A stretch of 64,000 nt of DNA from Chloroflexota bacterium (GTDB taxonomy: Bacteria; Chloroflexota; Anaerolineae; VGOG01). The notes beneath the pieces are model-generated. The model worked only from the letters and a program-made list of their open reading frames with translations. It searched no databases and was not told where the DNA came from. Location of the stretch: the NCBI GenBank assembly GCA_030611885.1, contig JAUWOY010000003.1:1-64000 (forward strand), written 5' to 3'. Below are positions 18,527 through 35,496 of this stretch, in pieces. Position numbers and translations under genes: made by a program. How positions within the stretch are numbered: position 1 is the stretch's first letter; each line of letters opens with the position of its first letter.

Positions 18527-19725
18527 AAAGGCGCTTTGTGATCATCGGCAACGGCGTGGCTGGCATCACCGCGGCCAGGGCTCTCTCCGGGTCAGGGAAT
18601 GAGGTCGAGATCTACACTCAAGAGACGCATCACTACTACCCCAGACCACGCCTCCAGAAATTCCTGGCAGGGGAGATTGAGCTGGCGGAGCTGCCTCTCT
18701 ATCCCCCGTCCTGGTACGAGAGGCGAGGCATCACCGTGCACCTGGGAACTGAGGTGGTGGGGCTCGATCCCAGGGCGAAGCGGATCGCCCTGGCCGATGG
18801 CCGCCAGGTTTCCTATGACCGGCTGCTCCTGGCCACTGGTAGCCGCCCCTTCATCCCGCCCATTGAGGGCATGGACAAAGGCGGCGTCTTCACCCTCCGC
18901 ACCATCGAGGATGCCCTGGCCATCAAGCGGTGGGCCGAAGGGGCAGAGCGAGCCGTGATCGTGGGCGGTGGGCTGCTGGGATTGGAGGCGGCCAGGGCTC
19001 TCACGGTGCTGGGCCTGGGGGTGACCGTTCTGGAGCGCGGGCCGTATCTTCTCCGCCGCCAGCTCGATGCCGAGGGAGGGGGCCTGATGAGGGAGTTGAT
19101 AGAGGCTATGGGTATCGGGGTGATCCTGGAGGCATCCTCGCAGGCCATCCTGGGCGACGGGCAGGCCAGCGGGGTTCTGCTGCAGGACGGGCGGAGGATA
19201 GAGGGTGATCTGATCCTCATCTCGGCTGGCGTCCGCTGCAACGTAGCGCTGGCCCAGGAGGCTGGGCTGGAGGTCAGCCGGGGCGTGGTGGTGGATGAGC
19301 ACCTGCGTACCAGCGCCGGGGACATCTACGCCGCCGGCGACGTGGCCGAGTGCCAGGGTCGGGTCTACGGCATCATCCCTGCCTCGTTGGAGCAAGCGAA
19401 GACAGCGGCGCTTAACATGCTTGGTGAGGATGCAGCTTACCAGGGCACCATCCCCTCCAACGTCTTGCAGGTGGTGGGCATTGACTGCGCCTCCATCGGG
19501 GTAGTCCATCCTCCAGAAGGCGAAGACTACCAGGAATTGAGGAAGTCCGGGGCCGGCGTCTACAAGAAGCTGGTGCTAAAGGACGGGCGGCTGGTGGGGG
19601 CCATCCTGCTGGGCGATAGGAAGGACGTGGCGCCGATAAGCCGGTTGATCCGGATGGGGACTGACGTCTCTCGCTACGTCGAGAGGCTGTTGGATGACGA
19701 CTTCGATTGGAAGGGATTGCTTTAG
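18523..19725 (+). CDS. NAD(P)H:rubredoxin oxidoreductase-like FAD protein
   Basis: 400 residues. FAD-binding motif '[18 protein letters not shown]' at the N-terminus, NAD-binding '[19 protein letters not shown]' near residue 150 and the second FAD motif '[17 protein letters not shown]' near 270. A C-terminal domain of the rubredoxin-reductase/nitrite-reductase type follows. The four-base overlap with the rubredoxin gene supports the redox pairing. It completes an NADH to rubredoxin to superoxide reductase/rubrerythrin chain within one operon. Related enzymes reduce ferredoxin or nitrite reductase partners, so the partner is inferred from context. Confidence 0.87.
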
Positions 19726-19727
19726 AG

Positions 19728-21734
19728 ATGACTCAGCAAACGGAACTGGATCAACTATGCGTTAACACCATTCGCACCTTAGCCATGGATGGGGTGCAGA
19801 AAGCCAACTCTGGCCATCCGGGGTTGCCCATGGGCGCGGCGGCTATGGCCTACGTGCTGTGGATGCGCTTCCTGCGGCATAACCCGACCAATCCAGCCTG
19901 GCCAGACCGGGATCGGTTCGTCCTCTCGGCGGGGCACGGCTCCATGATGTTGTACAGCCTGCTGCACCTCACCGGCTACGATCTCCCGCTGGAGGAGCTG
20001 CAGAGTTTCCGGCAGTGGGGCAGCCGCACTCCCGGCCATCCTGAGTACGGCCTGGCACCGGGGGTGGAGACCACCACCGGCCCGCTGGGGCAGGGCTTCA
20101 CCAACGGTGTGGGCATGGCCATCGCCGAGGCCTACCTGGCCGCCTATTTCAATCGCCCCGGCCACAAAATCGTTGACCATTACGTCTACGCCATCGTCAG
20201 CGACGGCGACCTGATGGAGGGGGTGGCATCGGAGGCTGCGTCGCTGGCCGGCCACCTGCGCCTGGGCAAGCTGATGTACCTGTACGACGACAACCGCATC
20301 ACCATCGAGGGCAGCACTGACCTGGCCTTCACCGAGGATCGGGGTCAGCGCTTCGAGGCCTACAGTTGGCACGTCCAGCACGTGGACGGGTACGACCTGG
20401 AGGGCATCGCCGCCGCCATCGGTGCCGCGCAGGCCGACCCTCGTCCTTCGCTGATCATCGCCCGTACCCACATCGGCTACGGCAGCCCGAACAAGCAGGA
20501 TACAGCAGAAGTCCACGGCTCGCCGCTGGGCGAAGAAGAGTTGCGGCTTACCAAGGAGAACCTGGGCTGGCCCACTGAGCCGCCGTTTCTCATCCCCGGC
20601 CAGGCCCTGGCCCATTTCCGTGAGGCTCTGGAGAGGGGAAGTTCGTGGGAGGCGGAATGGCAGGCTCGTTTCCAGGCCTACGCTGCCGAGTATCCCGACC
20701 TGGCCGAGGAGTGGCGCATGGTGATGGCTGGCGAGCTGCCCGCGGGCTGGGATGCGGACCTGCCCGTTTTCGGGCCGGATGATGGATCACTGGCCACCCG
20801 CGTCGCCTCGGGCAAGGTGCTCAATGCCATCGCTCCCCATCTGCCTACCCTGATCGGCGGCTCGGCGGACCTGGCCCCGTCCTGCAAAACCTACCTGAAC
20901 GGCTGCGGCGACTTCTCCGCCGACGACCCTGGCGGCCGCAACTTCCATTTCGGGGTGCGGGAGCACGCCATGGGCGGCATCCTGAGCGGCATGGCCCTGC
21001 ACGGCGGGGTGATTCCGTTTGGCAGCACCTTCCTCGTCTTCTCCGACTACATGCGCCCCAGCATCCGCCTGGCGGCGATGATGGAGATACCCGTCGTCTA
21101 CGTCTTCACCCACGACAGCATAGGCATCGGCGAGGACGGGCCGACCCACCAGCCGATAGAGCAATTGGCCGCGCTGCGAGCCATTCCTCATCTCACCGTG
21201 ATCCGCCCCGCCGACGCGAACGAGACGGTCGTCGCCTGGCGCGTGGCCCTGGAGCATCGCGAAGGGCCGGTGGCGCTGCTCTTCACCCGGCAAAAGCTGC
21301 CCGTGCTGGATCGCGCCACCTTGGCCCCCGCCGACGGGCTGACGCGCGGCGCCTACGTCCTGGCCGAGGCCGAGGGAGGGCGGCCCGACGTCATCCTGAT
21401 CGCCACCGGCTCCGAGGTGCCCGTCGCCCTCGCGGCGCGGGAGCGGTTGGCTCAGCAGGGGGTGAGGGCCCGCGTGGTGAACATGCCCAGTTGGGAGCTC
21501 TTCGAGCGGCAGCCCCAGTCCTACCGTGACGAAGTGTTGCCTCCTGAGGTGACCGCTCGCCTGGCCATCGAAGCCGGCGTGCCGCAGGGCTGGCATCGCT
21601 ACGTCGGTGACGGGGGTGATGTGATCGGCATCGAACGCTTTGGGGCCTCGGCGCCGTACAAAGTGCTGTGGGAGAAGTACGGTTTCACGGCCGAGAACGT
21701 CGCCGCCCGTGCTTTGGAGATGCTGGAATACTGA
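19728..21734 (+). CDS. tkt: Transketolase
   Basis: About 668 residues, full length. It is a thiamine-diphosphate enzyme of the non-oxidative pentose phosphate pathway, moving two-carbon units between sugar phosphates. Seen: '[20 protein letters not shown]', the ThDP/Mg site '[20 protein letters not shown]' and '[15 protein letters not shown]', '[20 protein letters not shown]', and the pyrimidine-domain motif '[20 protein letters not shown]'. ATG 19728 is two bases after the reductase stop; a TTG at 19707 is the alternative. Placement at the end of a redox operon suggests support of NADPH or precursor supply, but that is inference. Confidence 0.95.
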
Positions 21735-21787
21735 TTATGGTTCATGGCCGATGGAGAGCTTGTCTGCGACCTGGGCTGCTTGACATA

Positions 21788-21955
21788 GACACTACAACGA
21801 ATTTAGAAAGAAACGAATTCTGGACTTTGGCCATTTTCCTCGTAGTGGCGACTTTGGGCATCTTCCCGTAGTGGCGACTTCAGTCGCTCTCCACGGGGTC
21901 AGAGCGACTAAAGTCGCTACTACAATTCGTTTTATTCCCAACTCGCCGTAGTGTT
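21788..21955. mobile_element. MITE-like element with 8-bp target duplication and nested hairpin
   Basis: Terminal inverted arms at 21789-21819 (ACACTACAACGAATTTAGAA...) and 21924-21955 (...TTCCCAACTCGCCGTAGTGTT) bound a 168-bp element with no gene. It is flanked on both sides by TTGACATA (21780-21787 and 21956-21963), a clean 8-bp target duplication. Inside is a REP-like hairpin, 21868-21890 against 21901-21923, with 21 of 23 pairs, plus a half copy GTAGTGGCGACTTT at 21842. A second, shorter member lies at 33663-33736. It fills the 300-base gap between transketolase and the site-2 protease gene. Confidence 0.7.
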
Positions 21956-21968
21956 TTGACATAAACCC

Positions 21969-21997
21969 TTGACGAACGCGGTTAAATTTGGTAGAAT
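21969..21997 (+). promoter_or_regulatory. Sigma-70 promoter of the site-2 protease gene
   Basis: TTGACG (21969-21974), 17 bases, TAGAAT (21992-21997), 46 bases before the start codon. It lies immediately outside the MITE-like element and its right-hand target duplication. Confidence 0.75.
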
Positions 21998-22042: not shown

Positions 22043-23164
22043 ATGATGAGAACTACCTGGCGTATCGGGAAGATCTTTGGCATAGACATCAACATAGATT
22101 CCAGTTGGCTTATCATCTTTGCCTTGGTCATCTGGACCCTGGCCGGGTCCTATTTCCCACAGCAATATCCCCGCTGGCCGACCTGGCTACATTGGACGGT
22201 GGGCGTGGTTACCAGCCTGCTCTTCTTTGGCTCGGTGTTGGGCCACGAGTTGGCCCACTCCGTGGTGGCCATCGGCCAGGGAGAGGAGGTGCGTAGTATC
22301 ACCCTCTTCATCTTCGGCGGTGTGGCCAGGATCGCCGAGGAGCCGGACGAGCCGCTCAAGGAACTGCTCATGGCCATCGTGGGGCCCCTCTTCAGCCTGG
22401 TCATCGGGGTGGCCTTCGGCGTCCTCTGGTTTTTGACTCGAAGTCTCTCTCAGCCTTTGAGTGCTTTAGCTCGCTATCTGGCCATGATCAACGTTACTCT
22501 GGCCCTTTTCAACCTCATCCCTGGCTTCCCGTTGGATGGGGGGCGAGTGCTGCGGGCATTGATCTGGGGCCTCAGTGGAAACCTGAAGCTGGCCACCCGG
22601 CTGGCCACTTGGGCTGGTCAGGGGATAGCCTTCCTCTTCATGCTGGGGGGTACCTGGCAGATCTTCGGAGGCCGATGGCTCGATGGACTTTGGATCATCT
22701 TCATCGGCTGGTTTCTGCACAGTGCGGCCAGCAGCGGCTATCGCCAGGTGCTGGTCAGAGAGATGCTGGGGGAGGTCAGAGCTGGCGATCTCATGAGCGC
22801 GGACTTCGCCACGGTGAGCGGGGATCTCACCCTGGAGCAGTTAGTGGACGAGTACGTATTGCGCCGCCGCGAGCACTCCTTTCCCGTGGCCGATGGCGGC
22901 CTGCTGCAGGGCATCGTCTGCTTGCACGACGTCAAAACTGTTCCTCGGGAGAAGTGGGCCTACACGCGGGTAAGCGAGGTCATGACCCCCTGGGCGGAGT
23001 TGGAGACCGTTTCCCCTGGGGATGATGGCAGTACCATCCTGGCGCGTCTGAACGCTCGTGACGTCCGCCAGCTTCCGGTAGTGGAGGGGGGAAGGTTAAT
23101 AGGCTTGCTGCGCCGCAGCGATGTGCTCCACTATTTGGAGGTGCGGACGGCGTTGGGAACCTGA
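22043..23164 (+). CDS. Site-2 protease family (M50) with CBS pair
   Basis: 373 residues. Membrane segments surround the zinc-protease motif 'GSVLGHELAHSVVAIGQG' (HExxH-type) and the second motif 'NLIPGFPLDGGRVLRALIWG', whose Asp is the third zinc ligand. The C-terminal 120 residues form two CBS domains ('VREMLGEVRAGDLMSADFAT', 'VSEVMTPWAELETVSP'), which probably sense adenine nucleotides. Such M50-CBS proteins cleave substrates within the membrane, often anti-sigma factors or membrane regulators; the substrate is unknown. ATG 22043 follows GAGGGAGTGAC, with its own promoter just upstream. Confidence 0.9.
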   Translation: MMRTTWRIGKIFGIDINIDSSWLIIFALVIWTLAGSYFPQQYPRWPTWLHWTVGVVTSLLFFGSVLGHELAHSVVAIGQGEEVRSITLFIFGGVARIAEEPDEPLKELLMAIVGPLFSLVIGVAFGVLWFLTRSLSQPLSALARYLAMINVTLALFNLIPGFPLDGGRVLRALIWGLSGNLKLATRLATWAGQGIAFLFMLGGTWQIFGGRWLDGLWIIFIGWFLHSAASSGYRQVLVREMLGEVRAGDLMSADFATVSGDLTLEQLVDEYVLRRREHSFPVADGGLLQGIVCLHDVKTVPREKWAYTRVSEVMTPWAELETVSPGDDGSTILARLNARDVRQLPVVEGGRLIGLLRRSDVLHYLEVRTALGT

Positions 23165-33662: not shown

Positions 33663-33736
33663 AACACTACATCGGATTGAGAAAGGAACGGATGTTTTGC
33701 TCCTGATCCGTTTTATTCCCAATCCGTTGTAGTGTT
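33663..33736. mobile_element. Second MITE-like hairpin of the 21788 family
   Basis: Arms 33663-33693 (AACACTACATCGGATTGAGA...) and 33706-33736 (...TTCCCAATCCGTTGTAGTGTT) pair at about 26 of 31 positions, leaving a 12-base loop. Ends and 'TTTTATTCCCAA' core match the element at 21788-21955. No flanking target duplication is seen here. Confidence 0.65.
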
Positions 33737-33768
33737 CTGGCAGATCCAACAATGCCAGGCAAGTGCCC

Positions 33769-33797: not shown

Positions 33798-33871
33798 AGA
33801 TGGCAGAACGGACAGCTTGAACATATTTGTCCGGGAAGGGTGTTCGAGTAGTTGGGAGAGGGAGAAAGAAG

Positions 33872-34732
33872 ATGGATTTTGTCAACAAGATTATCCAGGG
33901 TGATTGCGAGCAAGTCCTGAAAGGGTTCCCTGACAACTCTATTGACCTGATTTTCACTTCGCCGCCCTATGCAGACCAGAGGAAAACAACCTATGGCGGC
34001 GTGAGGCCTGCTGAATATGTGGATTGGTTTTTGCCAAAAGCGGAGCAATTCTTGCGAGTGCTGAAGCCTACTGGAACTTTCATTTTGAATATCAAGGAGA
34101 GAGCTGTAAATGGAGAGAGACACACTTACGTCATTGAATTGATATTGAAGATGAGAGAGCGGGGGTGGCTGTGGACTGAGGAGTTTATGTGGCACAAGAA
34201 GAACGCTTACCCTGGAAAGTGGCCTAATAGGTTCAGGGATTCTTGGGAGAGATTGCTTCAGTTCAACAAGCGACGAAAATTCAATATGTATCAAGAGGCG
34301 GTCATGGTTCCTGTAGGGGATTGGGCTCAAGGCCGCTTACGCAATCTCAGCGAGACAGACAAAATCAGGGACGAGTCAAAAGTCGGGAGTGGGTTTGGCA
34401 AAAACATCTCGAAATGGGTTGGCCGTGATAAGGTCTATCCGACCAATGTGATTCACATGGCTACAGAGTGCTCAAACAGGCAGCATAGTGCAGCCTTCCC
34501 TGTAGGTTTGCCTATCTGGTTTATCAAGTTGTTCACGGATAGCAATAGTATTGTTCTAGACCCGTTCATTGGCTCAGGAACGACAGCGGCGGCGGCAAAG
34601 CAGCTTGGGCGCAAGTATGTAGGCATTGACATCAATGAGGAATACTGCCAAATAGCGAGGCAAAGGCTTACGCAGGTACAACCGCGATTACTGGAAGAGC
34701 TTGAAGAATACGAAGTGAGGGCAATGCAATGA
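33872..34732 (+). CDS. Type II DNA methylase (SPPY, beta-class order)
   Basis: About 286 residues. The catalytic motif 'IDLIFTSPPYADQRKTTYGG' lies near the N-terminus and the SAM motif 'IVLDPFIGSGTTAAAAKQLG' near residue 235, the beta-class order. SPPY is typical of N4-cytosine methylases. The middle has a recognition-type region with 'WHKKNAYPGKWPNRFRDSWE'. It protects host DNA from the partner endonucleases. ATG 33872 has GGGAGAGGGAGAAAGAAG upstream. Its stop overlaps the next gene (ATGA). Base composition here is lower in GC than in the flanking housekeeping genes. Confidence 0.88.
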   Translation: MDFVNKIIQGDCEQVLKGFPDNSIDLIFTSPPYADQRKTTYGGVRPAEYVDWFLPKAEQFLRVLKPTGTFILNIKERAVNGERHTYVIELILKMRERGWLWTEEFMWHKKNAYPGKWPNRFRDSWERLLQFNKRRKFNMYQEAVMVPVGDWAQGRLRNLSETDKIRDESKVGSGFGKNISKWVGRDKVYPTNVIHMATECSNRQHSAAFPVGLPIWFIKLFTDSNSIVLDPFIGSGTTAAAAKQLGRKYVGIDINEEYCQIARQRLTQVQPRLLEELEEYEVRAMQ

Positions 34733-35496
34733 AGTCGTTAGATTTAGGCCAGGTCCGCGAGTACGTGAATGAGAATATTGTTGATTTTCATCAGTGGAGA
34801 ATCAGGTTGTTAGAAGACCTGAAGATCAGAGACCTGCTGAAGAAAAATCCGTACTTGTTCAGGGCGAAGAACATAACCAAGGCCCAGGATTTGGTAGAGG
34901 GTTTGTTGGACGCGCGGCTTTCTTCGTCCGAGGAAAGGCTTTTTGGGGATTTTCTTGAGGATTTGGCCATTTTCATCGTAGGCCAAACATGTGGGGGACA
35001 TAAATCCACGGCGCAAGGTGTTGATCTGGAATTTATGAATGTAGGTATCCACTACGTGGTCTCTGTGAAATCGGGGCCAAACTGGGGCAATAGCTCTCAG
35101 CAAAAGAAGCTTGCCCAGGACTTGAGAGATGCCGTGATCAGAGTGAGGCAATCGAGAGTCGCAGCGAAGGTTGAGCCTGTGCTTGGAATCTGCTACGGCA
35201 AGACTCGAACAACATATACGAAAAGGGGCTACCTAAAAGTCGTTGGTCAGAACTTCTGGTACCTGATCAGTGAAAGCCAAAATCTGTACACCGACATCAT
35301 TGAGCCGATTGGTTATAGGGCGAAAGAGCATAATGATGCGTTCTACAAGCAGAAAGACAGAGTTGTAAACAGGTTCACCAAGCAGTTTCTGGACGAGTTT
35401 TGCGATGGCACAGGCGCGATAGATTGGGTAGAGCTTGTCGAGTTCAACAGTGGCAATTACGATTTGGACAAGTTCCTTCCCCAGGGACCTCGATGA
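34729..35496 (+). CDS. PmeII-family type II restriction endonuclease
   Basis: 255 residues. 'RLFGDFLEDLAIFIVGQTCG', 'GVDLEFMNVGIHYVVSVKSG' and 'PNWGNSSQQKKLAQDLRDAV' match PmeII-family restriction enzymes. The D...(S/V)xK arrangement ('GVDLEF', 'VSVKSG') is a PD-(D/E)XK-type active site. It overlaps the methylase gene by four bases upstream and the next endonuclease gene by four bases downstream. It should cut the sequence that the methylase protects; the recognition site cannot be read from here. Confidence 0.82.
   Translation: MKSLDLGQVREYVNENIVDFHQWRIRLLEDLKIRDLLKKNPYLFRAKNITKAQDLVEGLLDARLSSSEERLFGDFLEDLAIFIVGQTCGGHKSTAQGVDLEFMNVGIHYVVSVKSGPNWGNSSQQKKLAQDLRDAVIRVRQSRVAAKVEPVLGICYGKTRTTYTKRGYLKVVGQNFWYLISESQNLYTDIIEPIGYRAKEHNDAFYKQKDRVVNRFTKQFLDEFCDGTGAIDWVELVEFNSGNYDLDKFLPQGPR

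Follow-up and report, generated by a model that had tools for sequence, protein, structure and literature searches.

The 168-bp element at 21788–21955 is a real, dispersed and layered repeat, both layers of which are of known kinds. It lies in the window, the whole 64-kb stretch of DNA that was analysed (G000:C48:1-64000), which is part of a 3.4-Mb assembly (G000, hereafter the own genome); its features are collected in Table 1. The outer layer is most probably a copy of a non-autonomous dispersed palindromic repeat with a core of about 75–80 bp that can be folded as one long hairpin, the loop of which has been replaced by a REPIN-like repeat in this copy. An earlier note, made from the letters of the window, had described a MITE-like element with a nested REP hairpin, and this description was largely right because the outer family is dispersed, orthologous sites without the core are found and the inner hairpin is REPIN-like; the element is also non-coding and absent in relatives, but a clean duplication and ACACTAC as the general terminus were not upheld. 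The outer family, which appears undescribed in the literature searched, is spread through the class and preserves its insertions in layers; what is interesting is that one core is paired with several outer ends (shells).

Table 1. Coordinates of the repeat layers and adjoining features in the window, and the shell ends named in the text
Feature	Position	Strand	Remarks
Remnant of cation-efflux gene 3' end	21738..21788	+	~13 recognisable codons
Left TTGACATA	21780..21787	+	Aligns in frame with TCAACATT of core-free G002 site
Outer palindromic element (core and enlarged loop)	21788..21955	+	168 bp; recognisable shell absent on both sides
Left arm ACACTAC...ACGAATT	21789..21819	+	31 nt
5' tail of nested repeat	21820..21867	+	26–27-bp partial tandem duplication
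Nested REPIN-like double hairpin	21868..21923	+	56 bp; GTAG foot left, CTAC foot right
Right arm AATTCG...GTAGTGT	21924..21954	+	31 nt
Right TTGACATA	21956..21963	+	Aligns with TTAACATA of core-free G002 site
Promoter-like site TTGACG-17-TAGAAT	21969..21997	+	Downstream of element; also at core-free G002 site
Second core of the same family (L035)	33663..33736	+	Lacks nested repeat
Degenerate outer (shell) inverted repeat of the 33663 copy	33744..33762	-	3 mismatches to TANCTTGACATTGTTRNAT
Shell ends named in the analysis			GTAAGCGTTCAGT, GTTAGTGTCACG, TANCTTGACAATGTTANAT

Layout and folding of the two window copies

The element lies between a transketolase gene (19707–21734) and an M50-peptidase/CBS gene (22043–23164; Pfam), and the two TTGACATA copies that flank it are identical. 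The cation-efflux gene, of which a remnant adjoins the element, is located upstream of the M50 gene in the same-family genome G002. The outer arms are 77% complementary, and the nested arms (21868–21890 and 21901–21923, 23 nt) 91% complementary; the folding energy of 21789–21955 as single-stranded DNA was -38.5 kcal/mol, while shuffled sequences averaged -17.8 (z -7.4). The unit outlined in the earlier note, with inverted ACACTAC ends, a flanking 8-bp repeat and a nested hairpin, is therefore real, as judged by its arms, its folding and its copies elsewhere in the own genome. In a comparison with the shell-end consensus, the window copy matched 5 of 14 letters on each side, that is, it has no shell. 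Within the window, TTTTATTCCCAA (at most one mismatch) occurred solely at the 21788 and 33663 elements, where 0.09 occurrences were expected.

The arms of the 33663 copy (31 nt, 84% complementary) gave a folding z of -9.0 as single-stranded DNA. This copy is a relative lacking the nested part, as had been noted, but it does not represent the pre-insertion state, since a remnant of the outer repeat is present on its right side; its right flank is a degenerate outer repeat and the copy is therefore a REPIN-free sibling. Directly 3' of it (33827–35496) are a DNA methylase gene (N6_N4_Mtase) and then a gene that matches the EcoO109I restriction endonuclease family (E 3.5e-70).

The nested GTAG...CTAC hairpin of 56 bp is likewise real, but the unit to which it belongs is larger (about 21820–21923) and includes the 5' tail with its partial tandem duplication. 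The unit was matched at about 38 other places in the own genome (40 of 78 candidates scored), many of the matches carrying a tail like CTGGACACTGGCG, as does the window unit; its closest relatives among the scored candidates were at C30 (93%) and C66 (91%). Two features of a REPIN, paired inverted REPs with GTAG feet and many genome copies, were found.

Distribution of the outer family and its orthologous sites

A genome-wide search for the arms, the check that the earlier note had named, revealed a dispersed family: the right-arm pattern (at most 3 mismatches) gave 32 matches in the own genome and the full-arm pattern 59 arms, with 0 for the reverse-read control in both cases, and at least one arm was present in 31 of 396 sampled genomes of the class, the own genome counted in (control 0). 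The own arms formed 27 pairings spanning 72–318 bp, the longest of which has another pairing inside it, and 12 of the remaining 26 measure at least 86 bp. As in MITEs, the members are short, non-coding and dispersed in many copies, and terminal inverted repeats are represented by the 31-nt arms in both window copies, the arms being internal in shell-bearing units. Exact arm matches in named sequences were of Chloroflexota type in 6 of 7 cases (Chloroflexi, Anaerolineae, Anaerolineales, Caldilineaceae); a sequence labelled Methyloversatilis (L129) carries a single arm. Viral contigs gave one exact arm match, with no second arm in the inspected stretch. At L166 (G223:C400), copies of the core family are arrayed in tandem and separated by partial units. 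Rough gene calls placed 15 of the 27 own copies between tandem genes, 5 between divergent and 0 between convergent genes, with 7 unclassified. By eye, the cores at L031, L036, L021, L051, L088 and L049 lie about 6–25 nt from a -10-like box, a possible preference for promoter DNA.

Ten genomes supplied 25 aligned cores, chosen as paired copies close to standard length; in these, 8 of the 24 predicted pairs were altered on both sides, notably from G-C to A-T in both CGGAT/CGAAT repeats. Such compensatory changes, and the position of several own copies near promoters or gene starts by eye, would suit a conserved RNA structure, an attenuator or a terminator in the regions at gene 5' or 3' ends, the outcome that the earlier note had held to be fatal to a mobile unit. 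However, a DNA palindrome is also expected to show compensatory changes, the Rfam matches were two tRNAs only, a terminator-like site was found at neither the 21788 nor the 33663 element, orthologous sites showed no conservation and 5 of the 20 classifiable copies lie between divergent genes; we regard this explanation as very improbable.

Joined flanks were prepared for 20 sites, of which 13 in full and the greater part of one more were used to query the same-family genomes G001 and G002; for six copies both flanks were located in at least one of the two. None of the 12 site/genome combinations open to comparison, at 7 own insertion sites, had the core (L031, L035, L041, L053 and L089 in both relatives; L037 and the window copy in G002), so that the empty sites typical of MITEs, which the earlier note had suggested looking for, were found. 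The window copy was compared in G002, the G001 contig beginning within the M50 gene. The best arm scores anywhere in these relative loci were 6–9 mismatches of 22, none of them at the site. Intergenic DNA is diverged in these comparisons. At L037, G002 holds about 830 bp of other DNA without a core, and adjacent intergenic DNA is also missing for L089 in G001 and L053 in G002. Since the window copy is absent from the orthologous G002 site, it was gained in G000 or lost in G002; core-free sites alone do not tell gain from loss. A degenerate arm at one gene end is common to G000 and G002 (L049, L122) and therefore not every copy is lineage-specific. The G001 site orthologous to own L031 (L238) holds a different nested palindrome (CACTACCGGACACTTTT...) between two copies of ATGAGGTC, which suggests that this intergenic spot is a shared insertion hot spot.

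Flanking repeats and outer ends

The earlier note had taken the TTGACATA pair for a clean target duplication, which is not supported in that form. The core-free G002 site reads CTGGACCGCTCAACATTTAACATAAACTCTTGACG, in which the octamer is matched nearly twice, by TCAACATT, close to where the cation-efflux frame ends, and by TTAACATA; by our own scoring, alignment to this site scored 98 with both octamer copies kept and 86 with one removed. In a classic MITE, ACACTAC would be a terminus recognised by a transposase, insertion would have duplicated TTGACATA and the REP would have entered later. The exact 8-bp repeat abutting the core agrees with this account, as does L036 in the own genome, where CGCCAAG stands on both sides at 1 nt; direct repeats of at least 7 bp within 3 nt of the ACACTAC ends were thus present in 2 of 76 cores (8 bp in the window copy, 7 bp in L036), and chance alone is an unlikely source of the octamer repeat because the frequency was about 0.17% among 5,700 mismatched flank pairs used as the control. 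Against it stand the near octamers of G002 with the better alignment when both are kept, the 74 of 76 cores without such a repeat, and the 8-bp duplications seen elsewhere, which lie 17–39 nt outside the core; on balance the classic form is unlikely. A fresh duplication fits the aligned sites no better than does insertion between two near repeats, or than an old duplication surviving loss of the element in G002, and a direct repeat of 8 bp next to a palindrome, even an exact one, is not necessarily a target duplication.

When the search was widened to exact direct repeats of at least 8 bp within 40 nt, 10 of 76 cores had one, against 2.3% of control pairs (about 1.7 of 76 expected). Three of the ten were longer repeats and were set aside (two in the L166 tandem array, one at L179) and one was the window copy; the six others are units of 130–145 bp with the core inside and exact 8-bp repeats, from G180, G268, G240, G253, G233 and G368, so that the target site duplication expected of MITEs is found in other members of the family. 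The outer ends of these units differ (GGTAAGCGTTCAGT, GTACACGTTCAGT, GTTAGTGTCACGAAG, CGGGTGCACTTC). ACACTAC, which had been proposed as the transposon end, is therefore not generally one, the core being internal to units with other outer ends in six genomes.

The shell ends also occur around other interiors. In G180, a GTAAGCGTTCAGT element without this core is nested in a core arm with exact GTTACATC on both sides, and GTAMRCGTTCAGT gave 309 exact ends (control 0), with several different palindromes enclosed in the loci read. Across three genomes there were 316 shell-end matches; 30 loci, with some overlap between neighbours, were read and gave a count of 34 ends, and a core lay within 250 nt at 10 of the 34, the sole facing partners found being 156–157 nt away. 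In G049, the outer end TANCTTGACATTGTTRNAT stands on both sides of the core, 59 nt ahead of its left arm and about 26 nt beyond its right arm. Among own copies, at least 9 of 14 shell-end letters were matched on the right side in 11 of 26 and on the left in 0 of 26 (background 0.3%), the consensus having been built partly from these flanks. Matches to the TANCTTGACATTG pattern (3 mismatches) and to its control numbered 18 and 3 in G000, 36 and 4 in G049, 10 and 0 in G001, and 7 and 3 in G002. At L271, L279, L281 and L297 (G001, G049), the TANCTTGACAATGTTANAT end bounds elements with a GTCATTGCGAG...CTCGCAATGAC palindrome interior in place of the ACACTAC core.

The core looks like a shared internal module with a loop that collects other repeats. 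We tentatively consider that it may go further and be a hairpin passenger, passing between shells with unrelated ends and also settling shell-less; its loop would be where REPINs and other repeats land, and layered elements would in this way grow around an extruded hairpin. If one core is truly shared between shells with unrelated ends, the conserved unit is a short hairpin and not the terminal repeats, and MITEs and REPINs would be tied together through single-stranded or cruciform DNA.

Putative movers and known systems

With shells, the core would have moved as a MITE, a proposal that draws on the outer inverted repeats and 8-bp target duplications in other genomes; in the own genome a minority of copies retain the shell end on the right, whereas the 21788 copy retains neither end. 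The 21788 copy lies upstream of the M50-peptidase promoter and was gained here or lost in G002, and the REPIN-like repeat with its 5' tail would then have replaced the hairpin loop, leaving the arms intact, a presumed order of events. The core could be extruded as a hairpin with a loop in which REPINs and other repeats are probably tolerated and to which they may be attracted, the second insertion presumably preferring the loop or single-stranded DNA. Transposases would act in trans, a DDE-type enzyme on the shells and RAYT on the REPIN. For shells starting GTAAGCG an IS66 origin was considered, with regard to the end sequence and 8-bp duplication of IS66. As the shell mover, IS66 was rejected: PF03050 gave no match in G180, G240 and G268, the genomes with these shells, nor in G000, G001 and G049; IS66 matches in G002, G253, G233 and G368 comprised six loci, with no core arm at up to 6 mismatches. 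The screen of the Y1 and IS66 families yielded no transposase gene that has core or shell ends.

Mobilisation of the core itself by RAYT, as a REPIN-like element without need of a shell, would account for the hairpin architecture, the CTAC/GTAG letters within the arms and the lack of a duplication at most cores. Yet the outer 5' foot has no GTAG, a scan of 30 of the 33 Y1 loci and of own L112–L114, L118 and L119 gave no arm at up to 4 mismatches of 22, the three weak matches (5–6 mismatches of 22; L119, L212, L224) include one in an arm-bearing genome, and 2 of 13 arm-bearing genomes (G123, G368) gave no Y1 match; this route is very improbable.

Bacterial MITEs (PMC10969869) are likewise short, non-coding and dispersed with inverted repeats, and the shell+core units share their 8-bp direct repeats, but here the conserved part is the internal hairpin, with several different outer ends, and no parent insertion sequence emerged from the Y1 and IS66 screens. 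Coxiella QMITE2 (PMC10969869), a MITE that carries a GTAG REP and is targeted by IS1111, is by its description a precedent for a REP-containing MITE acting as a landing site; here, however, the REPIN replaces the loop and sibling copies hold other kinds of repeat in loops or arms. GTAG repeats have been reported in Chloroflexi (PMC3733652). The nested unit resembles the GTAG REPs and REPINs of RAYT systems (PMC3733652, PMC6006769) in its two inverted hairpins with GTAG/CTAC feet, its high copy number and the presence of a related family next to a RAYT gene in G004, whereas the own RAYT-like genes are not flanked by the nested family and the repeat sits in the loop of another mobile palindrome.

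In G004, the related REPIN family (GTAGTAACGACTTTAGTCGTT) stands on both sides of the Y1 gene (L228, gene 1348–1947), which scored 22.3 bits in Pfam against a cut-off of 23 and passed with its neighbours in the Y1 locus screen. Three own RAYT-like genes scored 83.2, above the NCBIfam cut-off of 80, and 75.8 and 67.6, below it; the inner REPIN family flanks 0 of these 3. The first (83.2) is flanked by CCCAACTTGTTGGGG repeats, and the same repeats occur inside the L036 core. Of the 27 own cores (2,870 bp), 7 contained CTTCGAC...CTCAG repeats, compared with 9 matches in the 64-kb window.
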